Below, in pieces: positions 2,748-44,893 of a stretch of DNA of 57,593 nucleotides. The notes below the pieces were generated by a model. That model was not told the DNA's origin. It did not search any database and was given only the letters and a program-made list of their open reading frames with translations. Position 1 is the stretch's first letter. Each line of letters starts with the position of its first letter. Origin of the DNA: Geobacter sp. Lineage in GTDB: Bacteria > Desulfobacterota > Desulfuromonadia > Geobacterales > DSM-12255. The DNA is taken from assembly GCA_009886125.1 (NCBI GenBank), contig VFJK01000069.1, forward strand, positions 1 through 57,593, in the 5' to 3' direction. The translations under genes and the position numbers were made by a program.

Positions 2748-2912
2748 TTCACTTTCCTCCTGCATGTTTTACAAGACATGATATTTAAATGGGCCACCCA
2801 AAAAATTTTAAACTCTAAAAACAAAGGGCGAATTCAACTAGTAAGTGCACCAGTTGATGCGAGACTGTCATTTATTACCGACTATTACTGAGAATCGCAA
2901 CATTAAATATCA

Positions 2913-3650
2913 CTACTCGCAATTCTCCTGCACCAACAGCTCCCTTGTGTTCAGATTGAGCGCCACCAGGCTGCCGTAGCCCATATGCCCCTTGTCGTAG
3001 CAGCCGTTATCCAGCCTTATGACACTGGTTGCCAGCGACTTCTGAATTTCGAACAGCGGGGTCACGGTATGGCCGCAGACCAGGGTGCGGTCGCCTATGT
3101 TCTGCGGATGCACCCGCTCGGATCGGTCCCAGAGCATGAACTCCGGCGTAGTGTCATGAATGGGGTCGTCAGTAGCAAAATCCAGCCCGGCATGGACCAG
3201 CACATAATCGTCCTTAACTTGAATCCGCCTCATGGCAGCCATGAAATCCAGATACTTTTTCGGGATATCTTCCGGCCTTTCCACGCCGAAACTCTTCAGG
3301 GTTGCAAGGCCGCCGTTGCCGTACCAGATTTTCTCTGCAACCTTGTCCCCGGCAGCAGCCTGGAGACAAAGCTCTTCATGGTTCCCCAGGAGAGGGGACA
3401 CAAAGATATCCTCCCGATCAAACAGCTCGATCAGGTAGTCGAGCACCCCTTTGCTGTCCGGGCCGCGATCGATATAGTCCCCCAGCAGGAATATGGCGTC
3501 TGTCGGTTCAGGCCTTATAACATCTTCAACCAATACCCTCAGCGTCCGGTAGCAACAATGGACATCGCCGATGGCGTAGCGATTGGGTTTTCTGGAGAAG
3601 CGCCCAGTCCACGGTTTTTGCTGCGATCTGCCTGTCCCGGAATCCGTCAT
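2913..3650 (-). CDS. Metallophosphoesterase, Ser/Thr protein phosphatase-like
   Basis: About 245 aa with the phosphoprotein phosphatase metal-binding signature in order: GDVHCC, GDYIDRGPDS and GNHEE near the N-terminus, then HAGLDF and GHT further on. These are the di-metal ligands of the PPP family, which includes bacterial PrpA/PrpB-type phosphatases and ApaH-like enzymes. It is soluble with no signal peptide. The substrate (phosphoprotein or diadenosine polyphosphate) cannot be told from sequence. Start is uncertain: ATG at 3650 is preferred, but a GTG at 3662 in the same frame adds four residues. It stands alone between the MORN genes and a toxin-antitoxin pair. Confidence 0.85.
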   Translation of the reverse strand: MTDSGTGRSQQKPWTGRFSRKPNRYAIGDVHCCYRTLRVLVEDVIRPEPTDAIFLLGDYIDRGPDSKGVLDYLIELFDREDIFVSPLLGNHEELCLQAAAGDKVAEKIWYGNGGLATLKSFGVERPEDIPKKYLDFMAAMRRIQVKDDYVLVHAGLDFATDDPIHDTTPEFMLWDRSERVHPQNIGDRTLVCGHTVTPLFEIQKSLATSVIRLDNGCYDKGHMGYGSLVALNLNTRELLVQENCE

Positions 3651-3741
3651 TACTCTCTGCACTCCACTATCACTGAATTATCGACTGCATCAATACTGTA
3701 AAAAGTTAGAACGTCAGGCCTCCTCCTTCCCCCGCTGCAAT

Positions 3742-4122
3742 TCATGGCCGGAACTTTTGCACGTCAAGATTTTTCAAAACCTTGTAGTGCTTGTCGTTCC
3801 CCGTCAGGAGCGGCAGTCCGTGGGTGATTGCCGAAGCCCCAATCAAGGCGTCGGCCAATTCGAGTGAGTGGCTTAAAAAATGCTGCTCGACATAAAACAT
3901 CGCCTTGGCGGATATCTCTTCCGTCAGGTAGATAACCTTGGCATTCCAGCCACGCAAAGCCTGCCTGAGGAGCGTCAACTCTTTCTTGTTGTTCATCCCC
4001 TGCACCAGTTCCATATAGGTAACCACGGAAATAGAAAAACCATCGAAATTTTCGATGGTTTGATAGGCTTTGTCATTGCCGCGCAGGTACCAGATCAGGA
4101 CATCGGTATCGACCAGCACCAT
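3742..4122 (-). CDS. PIN-domain toxin, VapC-like ribonuclease
   Basis: A 126-aa PIN-domain protein beginning MVLVDTDVLIWYLRG. The acidic residues expected for metal-dependent RNase activity are visible: Asp in VDTDVLIW, Glu in YMELVQG, Asp in ELADALIGA and Asp in LLTGNDKHY. Its ATG starts directly after the stop codon of the upstream antitoxin gene (no gap), so the two are translationally coupled. VapC toxins usually cleave tRNA or rRNA; the target here is unknown. The protein is of family length and looks intact. Confidence 0.87.
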   Translation of the reverse strand: MVLVDTDVLIWYLRGNDKAYQTIENFDGFSISVVTYMELVQGMNNKKELTLLRQALRGWNAKVIYLTEEISAKAMFYVEQHFLSHSLELADALIGASAITHGLPLLTGNDKHYKVLKNLDVQKFRP

Positions 4123-4356
4123 TTAAAACCTGCTTTTGCGCAGTTTGCGGACATATTCGTCAACATTCTGCGTATCGTCGTTCTCCCGCCAGATACCGAA
4201 CAGTTGGTTTTTCTCAGCCTGTGGCACCATTGCCGGAAAAGGAACAAGCTTGGCGCACGGTTTGCCGTGGCGGGTGATGACAACCTCCTCCCCTCTGGTG
4301 ACGGTCTCCAGCAGCTCACTGGAATGAAAACGCAAATCTTTCGCAGTAGCGTTCAC
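4123..4356 (-). CDS. Antitoxin, Phd/YefM family
   Basis: A 77-aa protein with the Phd/YefM N-terminal DNA-binding pattern (ATAKDLRFHSSELLETVTRG followed by EEVVITRHGKPCAKLVP) and a short C-terminal tail that would bind the toxin. It uses a GTG start at 4356 with GGGGGA 5 nt upstream. It lies immediately before the PIN toxin, the usual antitoxin-first order. A palindrome just upstream (4377-4398) is a good candidate for autoregulation. Pairing of a Phd-type antitoxin with a VapC-type toxin is common. Confidence 0.87.
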   Translation of the reverse strand: MNATAKDLRFHSSELLETVTRGEEVVITRHGKPCAKLVPFPAMVPQAEKNQLFGIWRENDDTQNVDEYVRKLRKSRF

Positions 4357-4376
4357 GGGCTTCCCCCTTCAGTAAA

Positions 4377-4398
4377 GTTTACATTTCAAAGTGTAAAC
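4377..4398. promoter_or_regulatory. Candidate operator of the toxin-antitoxin operon
   Basis: Perfect 7-bp inverted repeat GTTTACA-N8-TGTAAAC located 21 bp upstream of the antitoxin start codon. Phd/YefM antitoxins bind palindromes of this kind over their own promoter; binding here is inferred. Confidence 0.55.
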
Positions 4399-4428
4399 AA
4401 TTGAAACAAGTTCGTCAATCCGAATCTG

Positions 4429-5259
4429 CTAACTTTTGCGTAGCGCCAGATACTTCTTCAACGCAACACGCCACGGCTCCGGCTTAAAGCCGCTATCCCG
4501 TTCCAGCTTGCCACAATCGAGCGTCGAGTAGAGCGGTCTGTTGGCAGGGCGATTCAGCTCTTTGGTCGTCATGCTGTTGACCGTCACTCTCAACCCTTCC
4601 TCTTCGAAGATCGCCCGGGCAAATTCATTCCAGGAACAGATCCCGCTGTTGGCAACGTGGTAGGTTCCGCAACAGCCTTTATCCAGAAGCGCTTTTATCG
4701 CCAAAGCAAGATCACCGGTCCAGGACGGAGAACCGATCTGGTCATCCACCACTGAAAGCTCGCTCTTCTCTTTTCCCATCCGGAGCATTGTCTCAACGAA
4801 ATTTTTCCCGTGGAGCCCGTAGAGCCACTGGGTACGGACGATCAGATGCGACGGCGCCATAGCGGCGTTCAGTTCTCCTGCCAGCTTGGATTCGCCATAG
4901 ATACTTAAAGGGCCGACCGGATCATCCTCCAGATAAGGGCTCCCTTTGCTGCCGTCAAAAACATAGTCGGTGCTTAACTGCACCAACGTCGCGCCGATCT
5001 CTCTCGCGGTAAGAGCAAGCAGCCCCACCCCTTCACCGTTTATTGTCATAGCCTGCTCGATGTCAGACTCACACCCGTCGACATCGGTATACGCGGCAGC
5101 GTTGATGATGGTCTTCGGCTTCAGCGTCAGGAGAACTCTCCGCACCGACTCCAGTGACGTTATATCTATGTCCGGCAGATCAAGCCCCCGGACATCTCCC
5201 TTTAGAATCTGGATGAGGTCGTGGCCGAGCATTCCGTTTGAACCAACTACAAGAATCAT
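4429..5259 (-). CDS. rfbD: dTDP-4-dehydrorhamnose reductase
   Basis: A 276-aa short-chain dehydrogenase/reductase. The N-terminal GSNGMLG is the NAD(P)H-binding glycine motif; STDYVFDG and YGESKLAGE carry the catalytic Tyr-x-x-x-Lys; RTQWLYG is typical of RfbD. It catalyses the last step of dTDP-L-rhamnose synthesis for surface polysaccharide. It follows rfbB by about 100 bp in the same direction. rfbA and rfbC are not present in the window, so the pathway genes are split. The spacer to rfbB is filled by a GC-rich palindromic repeat. Confidence 0.93.
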   Translation of the reverse strand: MILVVGSNGMLGHDLIQILKGDVRGLDLPDIDITSLESVRRVLLTLKPKTIINAAAYTDVDGCESDIEQAMTINGEGVGLLALTAREIGATLVQLSTDYVFDGSKGSPYLEDDPVGPLSIYGESKLAGELNAAMAPSHLIVRTQWLYGLHGKNFVETMLRMGKEKSELSVVDDQIGSPSWTGDLALAIKALLDKGCCGTYHVANSGICSWNEFARAIFEEEGLRVTVNSMTTKELNRPANRPLYSTLDCGKLERDSGFKPEPWRVALKKYLALRKS

Positions 5260-5288
5260 GTAAAACCCCCAAAAATATGTGAACCTCC

Positions 5289-5360
5289 AACCCCTCCCGG
5301 CCTCCCCTTGTCAGGGGAGGAGCAATAACTTCCCCCCTGACAAGGGGGGATTGAGGGGGG
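5289..5360. repeat. GC-rich double-palindrome repeat, copy 1
   Basis: Two hairpins in tandem, built from CCTCCCCTTGTCAGGGGAGG and TCCCCCCTGACAAGGGGGGA, fill the rfbB-rfbD spacer and end at the rfbB stop codon. A second copy at 8741-8810 matches this one in reverse complement. It resembles REP-type interspersed palindromes and may end or attenuate transcription between the genes. Confidence 0.75.
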
Positions 5361-6437
5361 TTACTGCCTATCCCCATATTGCTCTGCATAGTATTTCTGA
5401 TATTCCCCGGACGTGACGTGGCCTACCCACTCGCTGTTGGCAAGATACCAGTCAATGGTCTCCCTGATCCCGCTTTCGAAAGTGTAGGACGGCTGCCAGT
5501 CGAGTTCGCGCTTTATCTTCGCGGCATCGATCGCATATCTGCGGTCATGGCCGGGACGGTCCTTCACAAAAGTTATCAGCCTGCGGCTCTCACCGGGCTT
5601 TCTCCCAAGACTCGCATCCATCAGGTCACAGACAAGATGGACAATATCAATGTTCTTCCATTCATTATTACCGCCGACATTGTAAACATCCCCCGGCCTG
5701 CCCGTTTTAAGCACTGTTTCCACTGCGATCGAGTGATCCTTGACATGCAGCCAGTCACGGACATTCAGGCCGTCACCGTAGACCGGAAGCGGCTTTTTGT
5801 TGATGATATTGTGGATCAGGAGGGGGATCAATTTCTCGGGAAAATGATACGGGCCGTAGTTATTTGAACAGCGGGTGTTGAGCGTCGGCATCCCGTAGGT
5901 CTCATGATAGGCCCGCACCAGGAGGTCGGCGCCGGTCTTGCTCGCTGAGTAGGGAGAGTTGGGGGCAAGCGGCGTATCTTCGGTAAAAAAGCCGGTTTCG
6001 CCCAGAGAGCCGTACACCTCGTCCGTGGAGATCTGCAGATAACGGAATTCCGGAACTGCGCCGGACTGCCAGTGCTTTCTGCTCTCCTCAAGAAGAACCT
6101 GGGTGCCGAGCACATTGGTCTTGACGAAGATCTCAGGTCCGGTAATGGAGCGGTCTACATGGGACTCTGCTGCAAAATGGACCACTGCATCCACCCGCTC
6201 CTCTGCCAGCAGGGAGGCTACCAGCGATGCATCGCAGATATCGCCCCGAACAAACCGGTAATACGGGCTATGGTCGACCCGTCTAAGGTTCTCAAGATTC
6301 CCTGCATAGGTGAGTATATCGAGATTGATCACGCGACAGCCGGGATTCCTCGACATGAAACAGTTTATGAAGTTCGAGCCGATAAATCCGGCGCCGCCGG
6401 TAACAAGGATCGATTTAGGTTTGAAGCTGCTCTGCAT
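5361..6437 (-). CDS. rfbB: dTDP-glucose 4,6-dehydratase
   Basis: A 358-aa extended SDR enzyme. GGAGFIGSNF is the NAD-binding motif; STDEVYGSLG supplies the catalytic Thr-Asp-Glu and YSASKTGADLL the Tyr-x-x-x-Lys; the N/C-terminal layout fits RfbB/RmlB. It converts dTDP-glucose to dTDP-4-keto-6-deoxyglucose for rhamnose and related sugars. The start is supported by GGGAGG 7 nt upstream of ATG. It is downstream of lptD, separated by a ~170-nt palindromic element (6468-6636). Both neighbours act in outer-membrane polysaccharide assembly. Confidence 0.95.
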   Translation of the reverse strand: MQSSFKPKSILVTGGAGFIGSNFINCFMSRNPGCRVINLDILTYAGNLENLRRVDHSPYYRFVRGDICDASLVASLLAEERVDAVVHFAAESHVDRSITGPEIFVKTNVLGTQVLLEESRKHWQSGAVPEFRYLQISTDEVYGSLGETGFFTEDTPLAPNSPYSASKTGADLLVRAYHETYGMPTLNTRCSNNYGPYHFPEKLIPLLIHNIINKKPLPVYGDGLNVRDWLHVKDHSIAVETVLKTGRPGDVYNVGGNNEWKNIDIVHLVCDLMDASLGRKPGESRRLITFVKDRPGHDRRYAIDAAKIKRELDWQPSYTFESGIRETIDWYLANSEWVGHVTSGEYQKYYAEQYGDRQ

Positions 6438-6467
6438 CAGCAGACCTCCCGAATATCGTATTTATTC

Positions 6468-6636
6468 TGAATCCGTGGCGGTGAGAGCCGTATCGAACTG
6501 AAACAGCCGGGGCCAATCGCCGGCAGGAATGTTTCAATCTTTTGTATCGGTAAACCTGTGCCGGAAACGAGCTCTCACCGACGAAATCAAGGCAGAGGCG
6601 TTGCAGTGAGAGACGGCTCTCATTGTCACGGATTCA
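6468..6636 (+). repeat. ~170-nt palindromic element, copy A (possible structured RNA)
   Basis: The element fills the lptD-rfbB spacer. Its ends form a continuous 24-bp stem (left arm TGAATCCGTGGCGGTGAGAG..., right arm ending CTCATTGTCACGGATTCA) with three G-U pairs when read as plus-strand RNA. A second stem inside pairs ACTG-AAC-GCC near 6497 with GGC-GTT-CAGT near 6598. A homologue lies at 46467-46636 in the same orientation. Conserved interior blocks are ATCGAAC, GAAACAGCCGGGGC, CTGTGCCGG and GCAGAGGCGTTG. No open reading frame is apparent. The right end stops 3 bp short of the lptD stop codon. Confidence 0.8.
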
Positions 6637-6639
6637 AGT

Positions 6640-8730
6640 TTACAGGAGCTTTAACGTCCCAAGACCTGAAAGACTGAAACTGACAGTGAACTCCCTGTTA
6701 TCAATCCGGTCACGGTAGGAGAGGATAACACCCCAGCACTGATGTTTATACTCTACCGAGTAGAGAGTTTCAAGAAATCCCGGCCGGTCGAACGAGTAGC
6801 GGCCTGCAGCGGAAAGAGTATACGGCTTGAGATCGGCGTACGTGACCTTGCCTTCGATATAATCGAGCTGTTTTTCTGCATGCCGGTAATCGAGCGAGGC
6901 GCGCGTCCCCTTCGGATCACCGATCTCCGTACCGAGCGCAGCATTGGTGACATTCCCGCTGTAGGGGCTGATCCGGTTGTCCGAAAAAAGCTTCCACTTC
7001 GGGAGCGGAAACAGCTCAAGCTTCACTGTCGTATCCGTAAAAGGCCTGCTCTGATCCACGGTCACTTCGAGATCGCGATGGTCACCGCTCAGCTGATACC
7101 CCTGAGAGACAAGGAACCGCAGAAAATCACGATAGTTGACCGCCTCGCCGTTTGAGGACCTCCCGATCAGCGAGTTCAGAAGTGAGAACCTCACCATCTC
7201 CCCGCCCAACGGCCGGTCATCATAGTCGAAAAAGGGTGTGCTGCTCTGATCGCGCTGCTGAGTGTAGCTGTAGTCGATCTCGGGAGTTATCTGATGTTTT
7301 ACCCGTTCGGCATCACCGAGAGAGAGGTCATAGACCCGTGAGAACTCGGTCCGGAGTGATCCGCCGGCTTCGAAAACCCCGCGTTCGCTCCATTCATCCC
7401 CTGTTACCGGGGCGTCAGCATGATAGTATCTCTGATTGTACCCCCCCCAGATCGACCCGGAAAGAAAGCTGCCCGCAGAGAGAGGAAGCGTAAGTTTAGG
7501 AGAGAGCTGAAGTCGCTGCCCTGTGTCGCCCTGCTGCCTGTCGAAATTGATGACGCTCCCGTCAAAAGAGTAGTAGAACGGTCCGGTGCCCAGTTTCTTC
7601 CCGGTTCCTCTCACTTCGGCAAACGGGAGCTGTTGGAGTGTCGCCTTGTTATCTGCAGCATAAAGATCGCTCGTGTATACAGCCCCTGCAGTAAGCAGAA
7701 GATCATCGCGCCGATGGGTCAGAAAAGCGACTGATTCAAGATACTGCCGGTTATACTCACCGCTCGCTGTGCCGTAGTCGCGGAGATAATCACGGTCCAG
7801 CGTCAGGTTCACATCAGCACGCCAGTACGTATCCTCAGTAAAGTTCAGCTGCTGTTTGAGTTCGAGCTCTCCACGAAACCGGTCCTGCTGCGTGTCGTAA
7901 ATCAGGTACCCCTTGTCCGTTCCCGATCCTTTGTTACTCCCCATATAACGGTATTCAAGCCCGAGTCCGGCCCCTCTTCTGCTCTGAAAACCAGCTGTCG
8001 CCGTCAGATCACTGCTTGGAGAGATGGCCCAGTAGTAAGGGACCTCCATAAAAAAACCTTTCTTGGAGGAGTTCCCAAGGTAAGGGAAAAGGAGGCCCGA
8101 CTGCCGTTCGGTCTTTGCCGGGAAAATGAAGTACGGAAGCCAGAAGACGGGAATATCTCCCATATAGAAAAAAGCATTCCTTCCGACTGCGAATTCATCA
8201 AGAGTCAGCTTGAAATCATCAATCCTGAACTTCCAGGCCGGAGTCTCTCCATCACAGGTAGTCAGCACCCCTCTCTGCATGGCAAAATCCTGATCACTGC
8301 TCTTCTCGATCCTTTCACTCTTCAGGTGAAGGTTATTCTGCTTGATAAAGATATCAGCTTTATTGATGAATCCTTTTTTTGATTCGATCTCCAGTTCCGC
8401 ACTCTCTCCAGCTAGGATATCTCCATCTTTCTCGACTCTTACGTTGCCGTTTGCAGAAATAACGCCCTTCTCCCGGTAATACTTCGCAATATCGGCATAC
8501 AGTCTTGATCCGCTCCAGTCAAGTTCGACGTTACCGGATGCGGTTATGACGTCGGCAGCCTGCTCATGGCTCAGGCTGTCAGCGAGTAAATGGAGCTTTC
8601 CAGAGTCAGCAGAAGTTTCGGCTGAATATCCCGGCGCCGCAGCATAAACAAGCAGGATTGAGATTATGAGGAGGGTTCTTAACAATGAGTTTCCTGTTAT
8701 TTTGTGAAGTGATCTAGTACCATGGAACAT
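6640..8730 (-). CDS. lptD: LPS-assembly outer-membrane protein LptD
   Basis: 696 aa with a signal peptide, an OstA/LptA-like N-terminal jellyroll (ADSLSHEQAADVITASGNVELDW region) and a large C-terminal beta-barrel with alternating aromatic strands, ending in a hydrophobic strand. GDIPVFWLPYFIFPAKTERQ and LLFPYLGNSSKKGF are typical of LptD. It inserts lipopolysaccharide in the outer leaflet together with LptE, which is not seen here. Start is uncertain: ATG at 8730 has only a G-run from a nearby repeat upstream, while a TTG at 8685 with AGGA 6 nt upstream would give a more standard signal peptide (LLRTLLIISILLVYAAAPGYSA). Confidence 0.92.
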   Translation of the reverse strand: MFHGTRSLHKITGNSLLRTLLIISILLVYAAAPGYSAETSADSGKLHLLADSLSHEQAADVITASGNVELDWSGSRLYADIAKYYREKGVISANGNVRVEKDGDILAGESAELEIESKKGFINKADIFIKQNNLHLKSERIEKSSDQDFAMQRGVLTTCDGETPAWKFRIDDFKLTLDEFAVGRNAFFYMGDIPVFWLPYFIFPAKTERQSGLLFPYLGNSSKKGFFMEVPYYWAISPSSDLTATAGFQSRRGAGLGLEYRYMGSNKGSGTDKGYLIYDTQQDRFRGELELKQQLNFTEDTYWRADVNLTLDRDYLRDYGTASGEYNRQYLESVAFLTHRRDDLLLTAGAVYTSDLYAADNKATLQQLPFAEVRGTGKKLGTGPFYYSFDGSVINFDRQQGDTGQRLQLSPKLTLPLSAGSFLSGSIWGGYNQRYYHADAPVTGDEWSERGVFEAGGSLRTEFSRVYDLSLGDAERVKHQITPEIDYSYTQQRDQSSTPFFDYDDRPLGGEMVRFSLLNSLIGRSSNGEAVNYRDFLRFLVSQGYQLSGDHRDLEVTVDQSRPFTDTTVKLELFPLPKWKLFSDNRISPYSGNVTNAALGTEIGDPKGTRASLDYRHAEKQLDYIEGKVTYADLKPYTLSAAGRYSFDRPGFLETLYSVEYKHQCWGVILSYRDRIDNREFTVSFSLSGLGTLKLL

Positions 8731-31794: not shown

Positions 31795-31806
31795 GACCTT
31801 ATCTAT

Positions 31807-31956
31807 ATGACCTCAAGCAATCTACAGGAGCTGCGGCAGAGGGCGTTGGCAGCAGTCGGACGCTTCCATTCCACCCATGACGACATCGCAACCAGACACG
31901 ACGATTATCTTGCCGAGGCGGAAAAAGTGAATTCCATAGTTGAACCTATGAATTAG
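31807..31956 (+). CDS. Small hypothetical protein, 49 aa
   Basis: A 49-codon frame, MTSSNLQELRQRALAAVGRF..., lies between the cytochrome and the DUF2442 gene in the same direction. It is charged, Ala-rich at the start and probably helical, without a signal peptide. A weak AGGA lies about 10 nt upstream. Codon choice looks coding-like. Its position 45 bp before a DUF2442 gene suggests co-transcription. It could be a truncated gene; no family is recognised. Confidence 0.5.
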   Translation: MTSSNLQELRQRALAAVGRFHSTHDDIATRHDDYLAEAEKVNSIVEPMN

Positions 31957-32307
<351 letters not shown>

Positions 32308-32427
32308 ACCGTACTCCTAAAAATTTCTTGCCAATTGAAAGGGGTCGTTTTCCCAGACCACAAATAATCACCGCCAGCTTCTGCCACAACTCAAGACAGC
32401 AAAAATGTTATGTCCAAGTCCAAAGAA

Positions 32428-32458
32428 AGCCCCCGTGCGGCGGAGGCCGACGGGGGCT
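32428..32458 (-). terminator. Terminator downstream of the small secreted basic protein
   Basis: AGCCCCCGT and ACGGGGGCT form a 9-bp stem extended by CGG/CCG inside; on the minus strand it is followed by TTCTTT. Confidence 0.65.
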
Positions 32459-32488
32459 GGATTGAGCCGTTAGATCAACGTGGTTGGA

Positions 32489-32704
32489 TTATCGCCTTAC
32501 TCGTACTGTAGACCGAGAAGTGCTGCGAGTTGTTTTCCCGCCAGAAGTCACTGCCTGCTTGGTAGTGGTTCGATAAGTATTTTTTCCGGTTTGCCGAACC
32601 TGAGTCTGCTGACGAACTACCGCCCGCCGTTGCGGAGCCGCCAAAGCTGCGGTTGCACTGAATCCCAATATGAAGATTATTGCTAATGCGATGTTCCGTT
32701 TCAT
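32489..32704 (-). CDS. Small secreted basic protein
   Basis: 71 aa from ATG 32704 (GGGGG 5 nt upstream; a GTG at 32710 abuts the G-run). A clear signal peptide (KRNIALAIIFILGFSATAALA) leaves a mature part of about 50 residues that is Arg/Thr/Ser/Gln-rich with no acidic residues. I do not recognise the family. A basic, probably disordered periplasmic or secreted protein; role unknown. A terminator follows at 32428-32458. Confidence 0.7.
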   Translation of the reverse strand: MKRNIALAIIFILGFSATAALAAPQRRAVVRQQTQVRQTGKNTYRTTTKQAVTSGGKTTRSTSRSTVRVRR

Positions 32705-32750
32705 GCTCACCCCCAGTTAAACAATTTCCTACGTTATTTTCACCGAAAAC

Positions 32751-33308
32751 TCATTTTAGCGGCATAAAAACTACAAGTACAGCCACACGGTCTTTTTTAA
32801 TTTTTTCCCAATAAATTTTGACATTTTTCCCTTTCAGGGATGCGTCCGTCATCATTTTATCAAAGTTCGACATTTCACCGTTTGCATAATATGTCTCGCT
32901 CTTACCTTTTGTGTCAGTAAAAGTGAGGTAGCATGAATCACCACATTCAAGCGACTGAAATGATCCTTCCGAAATACCAGAGGCATTTGCTTTAAGTACA
33001 GTCTTTACCGTAAATACTTTATGACCGGCTGGCGTTATCAAAATTTGGCCGGTGGATGGCCCTGACACAACATGATCATAATCACCGATGACCGTGATAT
33101 CTGATTTACTTTTTATTGCTACATCTACAGCTTTACGTTGCGGGCTTTTGAAATTAGTACTGAGCAAATACGTAGTGCCGTTAGAGGCCAGGATGTAAAT
33201 ATTGTCCGATTCCTTCTTGACCTTCCCAGTAAGTACTATGTCGTCTGCAAAAGAAAAACTGCTGAGAGAAATGACTACAAATAATAAGAAAAATATCCTA
33301 ATTCTCAT
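32751..33308 (-). CDS. Hypothetical secreted protein
   Basis: 185 aa. N-terminal signal peptide RIRIFFLLFVVISLSSFSFA. The mature part is beta-rich, with a Cys pair (LECGDSC) in the middle. Codon use is more AT-rich than in the biosynthetic genes. It is followed by the small basic secreted protein and preceded by a zinc-ribbon membrane gene, all on the minus strand. No family recognised. Confidence 0.72.
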   Translation of the reverse strand: MRIRIFFLLFVVISLSSFSFADDIVLTGKVKKESDNIYILASNGTTYLLSTNFKSPQRKAVDVAIKSKSDITVIGDYDHVVSGPSTGQILITPAGHKVFTVKTVLKANASGISEGSFQSLECGDSCYLTFTDTKGKSETYYANGEMSNFDKMMTDASLKGKNVKIYWEKIKKDRVAVLVVFMPLK

Positions 33309-33350
33309 AAATAACCCCTAGGAACAGTTCAGTTGCCGATTTAATCTATA

Positions 33351-33794
33351 TCAAATCCACGGCTGCTGATTTGTTGTAATCAACTTGTAATACAAGTAGT
33401 TACCTCTAACCCCATAATAAAATGGGTAAATTACGAATAGACCACCTACAGTTATGCTGCCTAGAACAATTGCCAAAATACCGCTACCCCATAAACTTTT
33501 TGAGAAGCACCAAAGTACTCCAAAAAAGAAAGATGCCCAATTCCATTTACCTTTATAAATTTCATTGGATTCAAATATCTTACGAAATTCATGCTGGTAA
33601 TATGGTTTTAAATGAGCAAAACCTGGGATTGCCTGTTCTACAGTTTTAGCTGTTGGCTGTTGATACTGAGGCTGTGGCTGTGGTTGTTGAAACTGCTGCT
33701 GACTCGGTTGTGATGGAACAGCTACTTGAGTTCCGCAAAATTGACAGGCTACATCTCCAGCAGACATGTTTGCTCCACATTTACTGCATACCAT
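33351..33794 (-). CDS. Zinc-ribbon membrane protein (DUF2628-like)
   Basis: 147 aa. An N-terminal zinc ribbon (CSKCG...CQFCG), a Gln/Pro linker (residues about 29-50), and a C-terminal domain with WNWASFFFGVLWCFSKSLWG and a hydrophobic helix (ILAIVLGSITVGGLFVIYPF), like DUF2628-type membrane proteins. AGGAGG lies about 5 nt upstream of ATG. It belongs to a minus-strand group with the SPFH/zinc-ribbon protein, suggesting joint action at the membrane. Function unknown. Confidence 0.75.
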   Translation of the reverse strand: MVCSKCGANMSAGDVACQFCGTQVAVPSQPSQQQFQQPQPQPQYQQPTAKTVEQAIPGFAHLKPYYQHEFRKIFESNEIYKGKWNWASFFFGVLWCFSKSLWGSGILAIVLGSITVGGLFVIYPFYYGVRGNYLYYKLITTNQQPWI

Positions 33795-33823
33795 AGTCCC
33801 CTCCTCGTTATTGCCTAAATCAG

Positions 33824-34522
33824 CTATCCGCGTAGCTGTTTGATGATATTTTCCCGCCGTTTAAGGATCGACTCAAGCAGGCTGAGGTGATCAAGTGCAC
33901 TTGCTGAGTCACCGATGCCGTTTTCAAGAGTGGCAAGCCCCTTGGAAAGTTCCTCGTTTATCCCCTCGCTGCCGGGCAGAGATTGTAAGGTCTTGTAGCG
34001 TGCTTCGTCGCAAAGACGCTCCAATCGATTCTTCACGGCAGAATCCTGGCCAGAATCGGCTCTCACTCTTTCCGCCAGATCATTCAGCTTCATCCTGAAG
34101 AGCTGCATGAAACTGTTCTGGGCGTCATCAGTCCGGCCTTGTTCCGCAACCTTGCGGGTTGCCGCCATCATAAGTGAGGCTCCGATCACAAAAGCGAGTA
34201 GCAGCAGAGCCGTTATGACAACAAGCGGAGTATAGTCACACCCTCCCAGATAGAGCCAGACAACAGCCACTGCTCCCAGCAGATTGAGGCCGGCCATAAC
34301 TCCCATACCGGCATGAAGTGGTAATGCCTGATGAAATTCACATTTACCGGCAGCAAGCGGATTAGTCGCCGCAGCCCAGACAAATATCTCTGCCAGAACA
34401 ACACAGAATGCAGTCAGCAGGAATCTGCTGTCCGCCAGGCTTTCAGATGCAGCCATAGAAAGCAGGGCAACGCTCACAACTGCTACGCCAATCAATACCG
34501 CAAAGCTCTTGATATTATTCAT
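33824..34522 (-). CDS. Hypothetical membrane protein
   Basis: 232 aa from ATG 34522 (GAGG 8 nt upstream). The alternative start at 34561 would overlap the upstream gene and has no site. Four hydrophobic helices fill the first half (SFAVLIGVAVVSVALLSM, LLTAFCVVLAEIFVWAA, GVMAGLNLLGAVAVVWLYLGG, LVVITALLLLAFVIGASLMMA). The C-terminal ~110 aa is a cytoplasmic helical/coiled-coil region. It starts 10 nt after the SPFH gene stop, so the two are likely one operon. No family recognised. Confidence 0.75.
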   Translation of the reverse strand: MNNIKSFAVLIGVAVVSVALLSMAASESLADSRFLLTAFCVVLAEIFVWAAATNPLAAGKCEFHQALPLHAGMGVMAGLNLLGAVAVVWLYLGGCDYTPLVVITALLLLAFVIGASLMMAATRKVAEQGRTDDAQNSFMQLFRMKLNDLAERVRADSGQDSAVKNRLERLCDEARYKTLQSLPGSEGINEELSKGLATLENGIGDSASALDHLSLLESILKRRENIIKQLRG

Positions 34523-34532
34523 TTGGCAAACC

Positions 34533-35840
34533 TCACTGAATGGCTGTTCCGCACTGAGCACAGAACTTCACGTTTGGCGCAGCAAGCTCGCCGCATTTCG
34601 AACAGGTCTTAACCAGTTCTTTCCCGCAACTGGGACAAAACCGACACTTTTCCGCAGTTACCGTACCGCAGTTGGAACATTTTACTGGCATCTGCGAGCC
34701 GCATTCACGGCAGTTAATCTGTCCGTCAGGATTATCGGTGCCGCATTTGGCGCAGAGATTATAAACATCCCCGCAGTTGGGGCAAAATTTTGCCCCCTTT
34801 GGTGCTTTAGTCCCGCATTTGTCGCAGATGCAAGACTGCTGCTCTGTATTCGGCGAATCTTGAACAACTGCAAAACCGCAGGCGGCGCAAAATTTCCCGT
34901 TGACTGGGATTTGCCCGCCGCATTTTGGACAGGGAGTGCCTTGAGATTGTGACGGAGCGAACTGCATCTGCTGTGCCATCCCCATGGCAGCGTTTCCCAT
35001 TGCCCCGCCCATACCGAAACCCATCCCCATGCCGATACCGGCCCCCATTATACCAGTGCCTCCCCCGCCAGGATTTGAGGCAGCTGACTCCATGGTATTG
35101 AAGGAGCGTTCCTGCTGATAGCTGTAGCCAACAATGTTCATCTCCGCTTTTTTGGCCAGGGCTGCCTTGAGCTGTTTGACGGAAGGATCATCTTCCGGCG
35201 CATTAATCGAAAGTATCTTGAACTGCATGAGTTTGAGCCCAAACTCCGCCAGATCTCCTTCAATGTCATGTTGGAGAAAATCCGATATTTCGGATAGATG
35301 GGCGTTGATCTCCAGAATCGACATCCCCTCAAGCACGAGTTTGCGGGCAATCGACTCTTTTACTTTTGTGATTACAATCCCCTTGAAATGGGACATGAGG
35401 GTGTTGCCGTCATACTGCGAAAGAGTGCCGACAATCTTGATCAAAAACTTGGCGCCGTTTTCTATCTGCACGCCAAATTGACCGAAGCCCCGCACAGGCA
35501 GCATGATCTGATATTTCGGGTCCATGAGCTGGATTGGATCGGGAGTACCCCACTTGACATCAAGCGTTATGGCCTTGTTGATGAACCAGACTTCAGCAGT
35601 AAACGGCGACTGACCGCCAAAAGGTATTTTGAAGAATTTGCTCAGGATGGGAATATTATTGGTATCGAGGGTATGACGACCTGGGCCGAAAGTCCCTATC
35701 ATCTTCCCTTCCTTAAGAAGGATCGCCTCCTGGCTCTCCGACACAATGAGCTGTGTCAAGGTGGAGAGTTCCTGTGAAGGGAATTTCCAGACATACACTC
35801 CGGGAATTGAATTCCATTTTACAAGATCAATAAATGCCAT
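34533..35840 (-). CDS. SPFH-domain protein with zinc-ribbon tail
   Basis: 435 aa. An SPFH/band-7 domain (about 25-255, including LIVSESQEAILLKEGKMIGTF and FGPGRHTLDT), a Gly/Met-rich linker (about 260-300), then a run of zinc ribbons: CPKCG/CAACG, CDKCG/CPNCG, CAKCG/CRECG, CSNCG/CPSCG and CSKCG/CAQCG. The same architecture occurs in YdjI-type proteins linked to membrane stress. SPFH proteins build oligomeric membrane scaffolds. No transmembrane helix is seen. It begins the minus-strand group with the two membrane genes. Confidence 0.85.
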   Translation of the reverse strand: MAFIDLVKWNSIPGVYVWKFPSQELSTLTQLIVSESQEAILLKEGKMIGTFGPGRHTLDTNNIPILSKFFKIPFGGQSPFTAEVWFINKAITLDVKWGTPDPIQLMDPKYQIMLPVRGFGQFGVQIENGAKFLIKIVGTLSQYDGNTLMSHFKGIVITKVKESIARKLVLEGMSILEINAHLSEISDFLQHDIEGDLAEFGLKLMQFKILSINAPEDDPSVKQLKAALAKKAEMNIVGYSYQQERSFNTMESAASNPGGGGTGIMGAGIGMGMGFGMGGAMGNAAMGMAQQMQFAPSQSQGTPCPKCGGQIPVNGKFCAACGFAVVQDSPNTEQQSCICDKCGTKAPKGAKFCPNCGDVYNLCAKCGTDNPDGQINCRECGSQMPVKCSNCGTVTAEKCRFCPSCGKELVKTCSKCGELAAPNVKFCAQCGTAIQ

Positions 35841-36041
35841 GGCCGTTTTCTCACTTATCGTGGAATGTCAGTATGTGGATATGGTAAAGCCTACTTCTAA
35901 CTTTGCCGTTTTTCTTATCAATGAAACCAGTTCTAATTAGAAAATTTGCCTGGTCAAACGACATGACATTAAATAACATTTCGATATGCTTAGCATGACA
36001 TTTAATGCCATTCTTATGATGTTAGATCTCATATTGTCAAG

Positions 36042-36066
36042 TTAATATGTTTTTTAACATCATTAA
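36042..36066. promoter_or_regulatory. AT-rich inverted repeat upstream of the XRE regulator
   Basis: TTAATATGTT and AACATCATTAA form a near-perfect inverted repeat 51 bp before the XRE start codon, in an AT-rich 276-bp divergent spacer (35841-36116) that also holds two near-direct copies of CATGACATT(T/A)AAT. A plausible operator for the adjacent regulator. Confidence 0.4.
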
Positions 36067-36116
36067 ATACTCAGCCCCCAACATATATTCTTTCATGAAA
36101 ATTCGGGGGGATTGGC

Positions 36117-36437
36117 ATGAAAAATACCAAGGAACTGCTGGGGGCACGAATCAAGGAGTTCCGCAAAGCACAGGGAATGACGCAGGAACAACTTGCTGAA
36201 CAAATCGGTGTTGAACCGAGACATATAAGCAGAATGGAAGGCGGCTACAATGCGCCATCAATCGACCGCCTCGAAAAGATCGCTAAGGCCCTGAACGTCC
36301 CGATGCGAGATTTTTTCGACTTCATGCACCTTGACAGCCCCGATGCTCGAGCACAGAGCCTGGAAGAAATGTTGAAGGGAATGGACGAGAATTATCAGCG
36401 GATTATCTACAAGATCGTGCGGGCATTTGAGGGATAA
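36117..36437 (+). CDS. XRE-family transcriptional regulator
   Basis: 106 aa. Residues about 6-62 are a Cro/C1-type helix-turn-helix (LLGARIKEFRKAQGMTQEQLAEQIGVEPRHISRMEGG...), followed by a short helical tail (SLEEMLKGMDENYQRIIYKIVRAF). Target genes are unknown; it is divergent from the SPFH gene group and precedes a BrnT-like toxin pair by 64 bp, so either could be controlled by it. A G-run (GGGGGG) lies upstream of ATG. Confidence 0.85.
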   Translation: MKNTKELLGARIKEFRKAQGMTQEQLAEQIGVEPRHISRMEGGYNAPSIDRLEKIAKALNVPMRDFFDFMHLDSPDARAQSLEEMLKGMDENYQRIIYKIVRAFEG

Positions 36438-36500
36438 CTGGAGGAAGCTAACCGGGTTTATAATTGTTTTTTTGCTTAAAGTTGTGATAGCGTTACCATC

Positions 36501-36776
36501 ATGATTTTTGAATGGGACGAGAAAAAAGCTAATGGCAACCTGAAAAAGCACGGAGTCAGCTTTGATGAAACCGCGACTGTTTTCCGCGACCCCCTCTCAC
36601 TAACGGTTGTCGATTCGCTGCATTCAGAAACCGAGCATCGCTTCACCGACATTGGATTGTCAGACCAAGGCAGGCTTCTTGTGGTATCCTATACGGAGAG
36701 GGCATCGCGCATTCGAATCATCAGTTCTCGACTGGCGCTACCAGCGGAAAGGAAGGAATATGAAAAAGGTAATTAA
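36501..36776 (+). CDS. brnT: BrnT-family toxin
   Basis: 91 aa matching the BrnT ribonuclease toxin family: FEWDEKKANGNLKKHGVSFDETATVFRDP, then SLHSETEHRFTDIGLSDQGRLLVVSYTE and RIRIISSR. BrnT is a RelE-fold RNase. Its 3' end overlaps the next gene by 17 nt, indicating coupling. The partner downstream is not a standard BrnA. Confidence 0.85.
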   Translation: MIFEWDEKKANGNLKKHGVSFDETATVFRDPLSLTVVDSLHSETEHRFTDIGLSDQGRLLVVSYTERASRIRIISSRLALPAERKEYEKGN

Positions 36777-37035
36777 CACCGATGATATAAAAGCAGTTGA
36801 TTTTTCCGGCGGAATACGCGGTAAACATCATGCGGCCTGCAAACAGGGATACTCTGTAAAGGTGCATCGTGAAGACGGAACTGCCATAATTCACAAGTTT
36901 GTTCCAGAAAAAGGCGCCGTTGTGCTCGATGAGGATATCAGAAGCTATTTTCAGGACGCCAAGGCTGTCAACGCAGCTCTGCGAGGTCTTATAAACCTGC
37001 TGCCGCAGGGCAGAAAGCGTGTTGGTGCCGCTTAG
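36760..37035 (+). CDS. Probable antitoxin partner of BrnT
   Basis: 91 aa from an internal ATG at 36760 with AAGGAA a few bases upstream; a longer frame in the same register starting at 36607 would lie almost wholly inside brnT and is not credible. The sequence (VINTDDIKAVDFSGGIRGKHH..., ending DAKAVNAALRGLINLLPQGR) begins with a beta-rich part and ends with a ribbon-helix-like SxAVNxALR segment as in DNA-binding antitoxins. It takes the place of BrnA. Overlap with brnT and the terminator right after support a two-gene operon. Confidence 0.7.
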   Translation: MKKVINTDDIKAVDFSGGIRGKHHAACKQGYSVKVHREDGTAIIHKFVPEKGAVVLDEDIRSYFQDAKAVNAALRGLINLLPQGRKRVGAA

Positions 37036-37065
37036 CCGTACGCAATAATTATTACGAACACTCAA

Positions 37066-37102
37066 ACGCCCCGTCCCGGATGAACCGGAGCGGGGCGTTT
37101 TT
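37066..37102 (+). terminator. Rho-independent terminator after the BrnT pair
   Basis: ACGCCCCG and CGGGGCGT form the outer stem with an inner CCGG/CCGG stem, followed by TTTTTATT on the plus strand. Confidence 0.88.
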
Positions 37103-37165
37103 ATTGTATCCTTTATAAAACCTCCCGGCTTCGAGAAATGAGCCGGATGCCAGGCGCACCGCAGA

Positions 37166-37206
37166 CCGGAATGAGAGTCGTAGCAGCGCTACGACGAGCG
37201 TTCCGG
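37166..37206. repeat. REP-like GC-rich palindrome before the pyc stop
   Basis: CCGGAA and TTCCGG flank a perfect 8-bp inner stem GTCGTAGC-AGC-GCTACGAC. It lies in the 37103-37248 spacer between the BrnT-pair terminator and the 3' end of pyc, followed by GC-rich sequence with no frame. It looks like an interspersed palindromic unit; only one copy is in the window. Confidence 0.6.
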
Positions 37207-37248
37207 GCGAGGAGCAACGCCGCAGGCGGCCATTTATCGGAGCCGCAG

Positions 37249-42406: not shown

Positions 42407-44893
42407 ATGAAAATTCCCAAGAAGATCTTCGCAGACTGGGTCATAGGAACCTTATTGACCCTGGTGATGCTGGCCGCGTTACTTCTTCAGTGGTCACCGC
42501 TGCAGTCCCTGGAGCTCAAGTCCTACGATTTCCGGGAGAGACTGCGCGAAGAGAAGCGGCAGAGCCCGGTCGTCATAGTGGCGGTCGACGATGTCAGCAT
42601 CGCTGCAATGGGGAGATGGCCATGGCCCCGAACCTACATGGCAGAGATCATCGAGCTGCTGAAAGCTGATGGCGCCGCCCTGATCGGACTGGACGTCCTG
42701 TATACCGAGACGGACAAAAGTTCCGGCCTTGCCGAGATGAAAGCCCTCAGGGAGAAACTGGAGGCAATCCCCTCCTACAGCAGAAACAGCCAGCTCTCCT
42801 CGATCCACAACGCCATACTGCAGTCCGAACAACTTCTTGACAACGATGCCCGGCTGGCAGCTTCACTGACTGCTGCCGGCAATGTCGTACTCCCGCTCTA
42901 CCTGACGGTCAGCGAGCAGCTGACGCGGCAGGAGTCAGCTCTGCCTGACTACCTGAAAGCCAACTCGGTCGCCGTCCCGGCCAACGCCGCACCGTTCCGG
43001 GCTGTGGAGATCACTTCGCCGGTGCAGGATTTCATCGCCACTGCCAAAGGGCTCGGTCATGTGAACATTCTGGCCGATGTCGACGGCTCACTGAGAAAAG
43101 AGACCCTGGCGATACAGTATCAGAATCAGCTTGTCCCTTCTTTCGCACTCCAGCTGGTCCTCAACTACCTGAAACAACCGGTCTCCTCTCTGAAAATCGG
43201 GGATGAGCTCTCCGTCGGCCCGATCAGCATTCCGGTCAACAAGAAGCTGCAGATGCTGATCGGCTTCAATGGACCTGCCGGCACCTTCCCCTACTACTCC
43301 TTCGTCGATATCATGAACAGCAAGGTCCCTCCCGGCACCTTCAAGAACAAAATCGTCCTGATCGGCCATACTGCCACAGGCATCGCGACCCCGCAGGTGA
43401 CTCCGGCACAGAGCAGCTTCCCTCCTGTGGAGACCATAGCGACCGTCGTCGAAAACATCCTCAGCAAGAACATCATGCAGCGGCCCTCCTGGGCGCTCCC
43501 TCTCGACGCCGGACTGCTGGTCCTGATCGGCCTCTTCCTCTCGTTCGTGGTGCCTCGCCTGAAAGCCGGGACCAGTGCCATAATCTCGGCGGTGATACTG
43601 CTTGTCTGGAGTTCCGTAGCTACCTGGCTCTTTATCCATCAGGGGCTCTGGCTCGACATGATGCCTCCGGCCCTCCTTCTCTGTATCGGCTATACCGGGA
43701 TCGTCACCAAACGGTTCATGATCACCGAACAGAGGAAGGAGCTGGTCGAAGCCGACAGTATCGAGACGAACAAGATGCTGGGCCTCTCCTTTCAGGGGCA
43801 GGGACTGCTTGACCTGGCGTTCGAGAAGTTCCGGAAGTGCCCACTGGACGAGACCATGAAGGACCTGCTCTACAACCTGGCCCTGGATTTCGAGCGGAAG
43901 CGGATGTTCACCAAGGCCGCGGCGGTTTTTGAGCATATCGGTCAGACCGGGACGTACAAGGATATCGACACCAGGATAACATCGCTAAAGAGCGCCGGCG
44001 AGACCATGATGTTCGGCGGTGGCGGCGGGAGAAAAGACTCTACCATCATCCTTAGCGGAGGAGGCTCTTCCAAACCGACCCTTGGACGCTATGAGGTGGA
44101 AAGGGAGCTGGGACGCGGCGCCATGGGGGTCGTCTACCTGGGCAAGGATCCGAAGATCAACCGGCAGGTCGCCATAAAAACCATCAGATTCGACGAGATA
44201 GAACCGGATCTTGTCGAAGAGACGAAGATGCGGTTTTTCCGGGAGGCAGAAGCGGCCGGTACTCTTTCCCATCCGAATATCGTCACTATCTACGATGTCG
44301 GCGAAGAGTATGATCTCGCCTATGTGGCCATGGAGCTTCTGGACGGCAAAGACCTTGCCGCTTTCACCTCAAAAGAGAACCTGCTCCCTCACAAGGAGGT
44401 CCTCAGGATCATCAGGGCGGTGGCTGATGGTCTGGATTTTGCCCATAGCAAAGGGATCGTCCACCGGGATATCAAACCTGCCAACATCATGCTGCAGAAT
44501 AACGGGGATGTGAAGATCGCCGATTTCGGCATCGCGCGGGTGATGTCCTCCTCTACGACACAGACCGGCGTCGTAATGGGTACACCGAGCTACATGTCAC
44601 CGGAACAAGTGGTCGGACAGAAGGTTGATGGCCGGTCCGACCTCTTCTCCCTGGGGGTGGCCATGTTCGAACTCCTTACCGGCACAAAGCCCTTTACCGG
44701 CGACAGCATCGCCACACTCATGTACAACATCGCCAACAAATCGCCGGTACTGCTCACCAAGGTCGATCCCTCGGTGCCCGAGTGCTGTGCCTATATCGCA
44801 CACAGGCTTTTTGTCAAGGATCTGGAAAAACGTTATCAGCGGGGGAAGGATGTGGTTGCCCACATCGATCTCTGCCTGCAGAAGCTGGGGTGA
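42407..44893 (+). CDS. CHASE2-domain membrane Ser/Thr protein kinase
   Basis: 828 aa. An N-terminal transmembrane helix (WVIGTLLTLVMLAALLLQW) and an extracytoplasmic CHASE2 sensor domain (about 30-355), three transmembrane helices (about 363-445), a linker with a Gly-rich patch, then a Hanks-type kinase (about 562-825): Gly loop GRGAMGVV, VAIKTIR lysine, HRDIKPAN catalytic loop (about 686), DFG (about 706), GTPSYMSPEQ. Architecture fits an environmental sensor kinase. PP2C and FHA genes follow at once, so their products probably act with it. Confidence 0.94.
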   Translation: MKIPKKIFADWVIGTLLTLVMLAALLLQWSPLQSLELKSYDFRERLREEKRQSPVVIVAVDDVSIAAMGRWPWPRTYMAEIIELLKADGAALIGLDVLYTETDKSSGLAEMKALREKLEAIPSYSRNSQLSSIHNAILQSEQLLDNDARLAASLTAAGNVVLPLYLTVSEQLTRQESALPDYLKANSVAVPANAAPFRAVEITSPVQDFIATAKGLGHVNILADVDGSLRKETLAIQYQNQLVPSFALQLVLNYLKQPVSSLKIGDELSVGPISIPVNKKLQMLIGFNGPAGTFPYYSFVDIMNSKVPPGTFKNKIVLIGHTATGIATPQVTPAQSSFPPVETIATVVENILSKNIMQRPSWALPLDAGLLVLIGLFLSFVVPRLKAGTSAIISAVILLVWSSVATWLFIHQGLWLDMMPPALLLCIGYTGIVTKRFMITEQRKELVEADSIETNKMLGLSFQGQGLLDLAFEKFRKCPLDETMKDLLYNLALDFERKRMFTKAAAVFEHIGQTGTYKDIDTRITSLKSAGETMMFGGGGGRKDSTIILSGGGSSKPTLGRYEVERELGRGAMGVVYLGKDPKINRQVAIKTIRFDEIEPDLVEETKMRFFREAEAAGTLSHPNIVTIYDVGEEYDLAYVAMELLDGKDLAAFTSKENLLPHKEVLRIIRAVADGLDFAHSKGIVHRDIKPANIMLQNNGDVKIADFGIARVMSSSTTQTGVVMGTPSYMSPEQVVGQKVDGRSDLFSLGVAMFELLTGTKPFTGDSIATLMYNIANKSPVLLTKVDPSVPECCAYIAHRLFVKDLEKRYQRGKDVVAHIDLCLQKLG

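Follow-up and report, generated by a model that had tools for sequence, protein, structure and literature searches.

In Bacillus subtilis, YdjI is known for tethering PspA to the membrane. YdjI is reported to have no membrane helix and to reach the membrane only via YdjG and YdjH, and the pspA-ydjGHI operon is placed under sigma-W (PMC8581546). Band-7 genes lie adjacent to pspA in several phyla (PMC9239133), and the flotillins FloA and FloT, of the same SPFH superfamily, attach to the membrane through a helix or hairpin of their own (PMC8581546). Here, we describe a block of five genes headed by an SPFH gene, at positions 32,489 to 35,840 of a 57,593-nucleotide stretch of Geobacter sp. DNA (contig VFJK01000069.1 of assembly GCA_009886125.1; the whole stretch is called the window). 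Our preferred reading, to which we give about an even chance, is that this block encodes a PspA-free SPFH membrane scaffold, perhaps XRE-controlled, which is YdjI-like in having a membrane receptor and stands outside the pspA-ydjGHI system.

The block consists of five minus-strand open reading frames (ORFs) running from 35840 to 32489, all of which were confirmed; the gaps from gene 1 to gene 5, taken from the coordinates, are 10, 29, 42 and 40 bp, and the block is probably co-transcribed:

34533..35840, minus strand: SPFH (gene 1), 435 aa; Band_7_1 domain, no membrane helix by hydropathy, a glycine-rich segment and then five zinc ribbons
33824..34522, minus strand: MEM (gene 2), 232 aa from ATG; membrane protein of four helices, with a helical tail at the C terminus
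33351..33794, minus strand: ZnR-DUF2628-like (gene 3), 147 aa; N-terminal zinc ribbon (ZnR) and DUF2628-like membrane segment
32751..33308, minus strand: SEC185 (gene 4), 185 aa; predicted secreted, no family
32489..32710, minus strand: SEC73 (gene 5), 73 aa from GTG; small, basic, predicted secreted

An earlier note on this DNA had read the block as five genes in a row, i.e., an SPFH protein with about five zinc ribbons, a four-helix membrane protein, a zinc-ribbon DUF2628-like protein and two secreted proteins, and this composition was borne out. Gene 1 matches Pfam Band_7_1 (PF13421) at E 9e-44, with 150 bits against a curated cut-off of 24, and DZR at E 3.5e-22; Zn_Ribbon_1 was matched in five stretches, and five CxxC...CxxC ribbons are present, so that the protein combines a PF13421 Band_7_1 domain with C-terminal zinc ribbons. 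MEM contains four hydrophobic segments. In gene 3, the matches to Zn_Ribbon_1 and DUF2628 score 21.9 and 21.1 bits, just short of the respective Pfam cut-offs of 25 and 23. SEC185 and SEC73 each begin with one hydrophobic segment resembling a signal peptide; an alternative ATG lies two codons into SEC73.

Evidence for the preferred reading comes from the relatives of gene 1 and their neighbours. A survey yielded 161 loci with an SPFH match (L and G numbers denote loci and genomes), and a midpoint-rooted tree was built from 87 of 158 rows; three short rows were dropped, the labelled rows, those with a score above 135 and every third one among the others were kept, L009 was left out, and the bootstrap was not fully settled. 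The window SPFH falls in a clade of 13 loci (support 100/95), with L115 of genome G498 as its sister (100/98). The YdjI-type proteins form a separate clade of five rows (100/100) containing four of the five PspA-linked rows, the fifth of which, L136, sits on a long branch and is unplaced. A four-helix gene adjoins the SPFH gene in 12 of the 13 clade loci. A hidden Markov model (HMM) trained on ten of these 12 neighbours recovered the two that had been held out, MEM of the window at E 2e-13 and its L190 counterpart at E 6e-8, and MEM also aligned with the profile of a seven-member four-helix family (hhalign 95.1%, E 3.3e-8). The window thus has an SPFH protein within the clade and a homologous four-helix gene adjoining it, the arrangement that defines the SPFH-ZnR/four-helix module. 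Outside the clade, the HMM found clear matches beside SPFH genes in L137 (2.5e-19) and L045 (6.8e-10), and marginal ones in L134 (5e-4) and L057 (8e-5, a doubtful 61-aa ORF). Among the 161 loci, a four-helix gene occurs within 3 kb in 16 and PspA within 8 kb in five, with no overlap. The pairing of an SPFH gene of the clade with a homologous four-helix gene recurs in distant bacteria, which is more than chance.

No pspA was found within 8 kb in any of the 13 clade loci by a home-made profile, although the flanks were often shorter than that; this profile, built up from three sequences, picked out five loci overall, with L121 and L196 (the place of PspA in G528) lying outside the scan. Judged from these sequence comparisons, genes 1 and 2 and the type of gene 3 fall within an SPFH module that recurs and has no PspA close by. 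The closest arrangements, with L115 the nearest by SPFH tree, are the modules L006, L007, L008, L116, L182-L186, L188 and L190, in which the four-helix gene stands next to the SPFH gene as in the window and, in all but L006, is followed by a zinc-ribbon membrane gene; by eye, 11 of the 12 other clade loci encode, on the same strand and no more than three genes further on, a membrane protein with a C-terminal zinc ribbon. The third gene of the window, in contrast, carries its ribbon at the N terminus together with the DUF2628-like part, and genes like SEC185 and SEC73 were not noticed in those 11 modules. The earlier note had named scattering of the genes in other genomes as what would speak against it, and this holds in half: genes 1 and 2 stay paired, whereas genes 3-5 as such do not. 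No description of the SPFH/four-helix pair was found in an open-access library, which leaves out most subscription papers.

MEM itself matched nothing in Pfam better than E 0.29. Its structure model (pLDDT 65.6, low depth) shows a fourth helix that extends past the membrane part, followed by a helical bundle; a PDB search with this model of moderate quality gave no match at E <= 0.001.

The likeness to YdjGHI proposed in the earlier note holds in part, through the SPFH protein. As in the Bacillus subtilis system, a helix-free Band_7-type SPFH protein with C-terminal zinc ribbon(s) is encoded beside membrane proteins. However, PspA is missing, the membrane partners come from other families and the SPFH protein belongs to a separate clade. 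The comparison could be made through genome G917, which holds both a clade member (L182) and a canonical pspA-ydjGHI locus (L197), 1.95 Mb apart. L197 encodes PspA (E 3.6e-34), a Zn_Ribbon_TF protein as YdjG and a TPM protein as YdjH, the same domains that are given for the ydj operon in PMC11237479. MEM has no TPM match in Pfam and reaches only E 0.064 over 40 residues against the L197 YdjH by blastp. Where YdjG has two N-terminal ribbons and one C-terminal helix, gene 3 combines a single ribbon with a DUF2628-like part, and it matches the L197 YdjG at E 0.020 over 31 residues only. No PspA profile match lies near the window SPFH, and PF04012 has no match in the whole window genome (G000, 99.74% complete), whereas nine of 14 control genomes were positive. 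Nine of ten further genomes were negative too, including the carriers G498, G409, G527, G529 and G530. Genome-wide, six of seven carriers are therefore negative (G000 and these five), and G528 is positive through a frame with two stops; some of the module carriers are incomplete draft genomes. Membership in pspA-ydjGHI was rejected, since none of the five features tested was found (pspA in the operon, PspA in the genome, YdjH, YdjG, and position in the SPFH tree).

The window SPFH carries five ribbons vs. one in the three YdjI-type proteins checked (L195, L197, L199), and its glycine-rich segment is unmatched in these three and also in clade member L188. An XRE gene lies beside the window block, vs. 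sigma-W for pspA-ydjGHI in PMC8581546. In contrast to the flotillins as presented there, gene 1 is without a membrane-binding segment of its own, and NfeD has no match in any block protein.

The dependence of YdjI on YdjG and YdjH in the account of PMC8581546 offers a model for how the window set may work. In the role that YdjH/YdjG play for YdjI, the four-helix protein would act as a receptor that brings SPFH oligomers to the membrane, and the SPFH protein would build a scaffold beneath it. Docking of the zinc-ribbon membrane partner, or of client proteins, may fall to the zinc-ribbon array, and the XRE protein might switch the set on under a signal, probably an envelope-related one. More speculatively, SEC185 and SEC73 could be involved too and carry the complex on into the periplasm.

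Within the genus, SPFH matches occur in all four genomes, and those of the other three, like the second copy of the window genome, are only 26-35% identical to gene 1. This second copy (33%; L005, G000 C174, 1471-3341) is ribbon-less by eye and is followed by a separate zinc-ribbon protein. Matches (E <= 0.001) were found in 86 of 141 genomes of the order, its own included, and close ones only in G498 (57%) and G409 (51%). Other relatives at 45-53% identity, some of them partial, were found in Turicibacter (L007), in the phylum samples around L006 (Oscillospiraceae) and around L008 (Eggerthellaceae), and on a single truncated contig labelled Flavobacteriales (L009). The G409 protein groups elsewhere within the clade, with G592 and G917 (99/93), apart from the window and G498; the members of the order are thus not one group, which suggests transfer. 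Phage and plasmid records gave seven and 25 matches to gene 1, every one below 60% identity, and a pattern scan of IMG/VR gave no relative; a phage or plasmid origin was rejected on these results. Two further arrangements involve SPFH-ZnR genes. In L189 (G600, 1080-7987), a related SPFH-ZnR gene adjoins two genes of the kind seen in type VII secretion, one YukD-like (PF08817) and one FHA-FtsK/SpoIIIE. In L200 (G1114, 2292-5917) and L201 (G961, 2109-5695), DUF2207 membrane proteins come after the SPFH-ZnR genes, with a membrane-zinc-ribbon gene behind them, which may be a further receptor swap on this pattern.

The block lies in a segment of about 5.4 kb (31795-37248) between the cytochrome c7 and pyruvate carboxylase genes, which also contains a DUF2442 gene, the XRE gene, a BrnT gene and a small ORF. 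In the congener G002, the two flanking genes are about 0.2 kb apart, and in G001 an ORF resembling a response regulator (by eye) lies between them; SPFH, XRE, BrnT and DUF2442 were not found by tblastn in either stretch. The ptsP contig of G003 (4.5 kb) has a different ORF next and no pyc, and is too short to tell. Because the segment is missing at the same place in G001 and G002, it is accessory, and the accessory block has probably been transferred. Two features lie nearby:

36501..36776, plus strand: BrnT-type toxin gene (PF04365 E 1.6e-25), a neighbour within the inserted segment
32428..32448, minus strand: terminator-like hairpin, a consensus match 3' of gene 5

The BrnT gene probably lies outside the module. 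The small ORF after it (36760-37035) occupies the place of a BrnA antitoxin and has no significant Pfam match. Terminator-like sites are no commoner than chance (three in the region vs. 4.5 expected in shuffles).

The guanine-cytosine (GC) content is 0.394 for gene 3 and 0.385 for gene 4 vs. 0.505, 0.521 and 0.509 for genes 1, 2 and 5, a split suggesting that the block may have a composite history. Homologues of gene 3 (any match) occur in 24 of the 141 genomes of the order, with the best one outside the window in G453 (29%). The operon there (C86, L229/L238) encodes four zinc-ribbon proteins, i.e., a ZnR-AIM24 fusion (E 7.9e-66) in first place, two others and a ZnR-DUF2628-like protein. It resembles the window in this homologue (26-29%) and in a divergent XRE gene (60% identical), and differs in being headed by ZnR-AIM24 in place of SPFH, on a contig of only 3.1 kb. 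For SEC185 and SEC73, no Pfam or NCBIfam family reached its cut-off. SEC185 gave nothing useful in PHROGs, which for the block added zinc-ribbon matches only, and one weak Mesorhizobium match (E 0.05) in a plasmid search; its single-sequence model is poor (pLDDT 46.5) and merely hints at strands. Genes that look lipoprotein-like by eye follow the module in L115 (Cds6_C NTF2-like), L008 and L190 (both DUF6591), and may be taken as a loose parallel to genes 4-5, homology not being implied. That SEC185 and SEC73 belong to the module is a speculative assignment made from strand and spacing.

Upstream of the block, the following features bear on its regulation:

36117..36437, plus strand: XRE-family regulator, divergent (HTH_3 E 4.6e-19)
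35841..36116, no strand: divergent intergenic region, 276 bp between gene 1 and XRE
35963, 35995, 36016 and 36056: ATGAYRTT half-sites in the 276-bp region, candidate operator

Four half-sites were observed vs. 0.16 in shuffles, and none of 2000 shuffles reached four, for a pattern chosen after looking. The window XRE is 53% identical over 100 residues to an XRE divergent from a TM2-SPFH set in G498, and the SPFH gene of L190 also has a divergent XRE, a shorter one (42% over 65 residues). The local control suggested in the earlier note thus gains support of context from the divergent XRE genes of G498 and G453; the part that concerns the operator does not extend to other XRE loci, and most XRE relatives adjoin other kinds of genes. 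Local XRE control of the block is plausible on this sequence context.

A bolder version of the preferred reading is tentative, and we consider it doubtful rather than probable. It holds that the module is a distinct, widely transferred PspA-free membrane-stress scaffold, in which the four-helix receptor recruits SPFH, membrane proteins capped with zinc ribbons (DUF2628-like, TM2, membrane-ZnR) are interchangeable and connect through the ribbons as a shared plug, and XRE proteins control such zinc-ribbon gene sets in the taxonomic order of the window. Several observations weigh against the preferred reading. The four-helix gene is missing from the closest relative, L115 (57%); a search of 395 genomes of the phylum with MEM alone as the query matched no genome but its own; and the number of ribbons varies across the clade (five in eight of 13 loci, two to four in the others). 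Two module carriers, G528 and G917 (at L197), do have PspA. Genes 3-4 are unlike genes 1, 2 and 5 in GC content. Within the order, SEC185 was found in its own genome and in none of the other 140 (1/141), and its proposed homology to the lipoprotein-like protein of L115, whose pattern looks alike by eye, was rejected when BLAST returned nothing. As for the regulator, ATGAYRTT is absent from 17 of 21 rows of other XRE loci and present as one half-site in four (20 distinct loci, since L115 and L223 are one). XRE matches are common, occurring in 140 of 141 genomes of the order (E <= 0.001), many to the helix-turn-helix (HTH) only. A zinc-ribbon ORF is directly divergent in just two of 19 further XRE loci (L217, L219), and in L223, the G498 locus, the TM2 gene sits between XRE and the zinc-ribbon gene.

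Among other explanations, one that we place somewhat short of an even chance takes SPFH and MEM, possibly with the zinc-ribbon membrane protein, as the functional unit, and SEC185 and SEC73 as unrelated passengers of the accessory segment. The GC break between genes 2 and 3, the isolation of SEC185 within its order and the occurrence of a gene 3 homologue in the XRE/zinc-ribbon operon of G453, with no SPFH on that contig, fit this. However, genes 4-5 share the strand of the others at gaps of 42 and 40 bp, and L115, L008 and L190 have lipoprotein-like genes after the module, though with other domains and, in L115, unlike SEC185. That the SPFH protein is instead a chaperone-like platform assembling membrane protein complexes, rather than part of a stress response, appears unlikely. 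Chaperone-like assembly roles for band-7 proteins are proposed in PMC11237479, and the L189 gene lies beside genes of the type VII secretion kind; against this, no protease or ATPase domain was found among the five block proteins, and the nearby regulator and the accessory distribution suggest conditional use. PMC11237479 also suggests that some band-7/flotillin operons without pspA may use PspA encoded elsewhere, so that the block could be a diverged pspA-ydjGHI borrowing PspA or another ESCRT-III-like protein. This would agree with the shared SPFH Pfam family, the lack of a membrane helix and the C-terminal ribbons. It is nevertheless largely refuted and hardly credible, given the PF04012 results in G000, the controls and the further genomes, the unconvincing homology of MEM and gene 3 to TPM and YdjG proteins, and the separate SPFH clade.

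The earlier note had also raised a membrane-protection or defence island; an accessory setting agrees with the analysis, whereas defence is not supported by it. We regard an anti-phage defence system as improbable. In its favour are the BrnT toxin and DUF2442 genes in the accessory segment, and the induction of pspA-ydjGHI by phage SPP1 (PMC11153139). The XRE protein has matches to 28 PADLOC profiles, the best being HTH_VI (7e-16) and CapH (1.3e-15), with restriction-modification control proteins among the others, and to NCBIfam RstR phage repressors below the cut-off, but these matches may reflect the common HTH fold. At thresholds up to E 0.1, PADLOC matched just one of the five block proteins, gene 3, and that at only E 0.0062; IMG/VR, as noted, gave no relative by pattern scan. 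The 38 other genes of the window matched 45 PADLOC families, and the matches listed (25) involve one protein each, i.e., PD-T4-6 kinase models and single mad3, mad6, MkoA and C3a189 models. The window also encodes a fusion of CHASE2 and a protein kinase at 42407-44893, which may be the source of the PD-T4-6 matches.

For the SPFH family, the preferred reading of a PspA-free scaffold has a wider bearing. Scaffolds of SPFH and zinc ribbons may be able to act independently of the ESCRT-III-like PspA, as a separate clade with another membrane partner and no neighbouring PspA would suggest, and many proteins named just 'SPFH domain-containing protein' would gain a testable partner.

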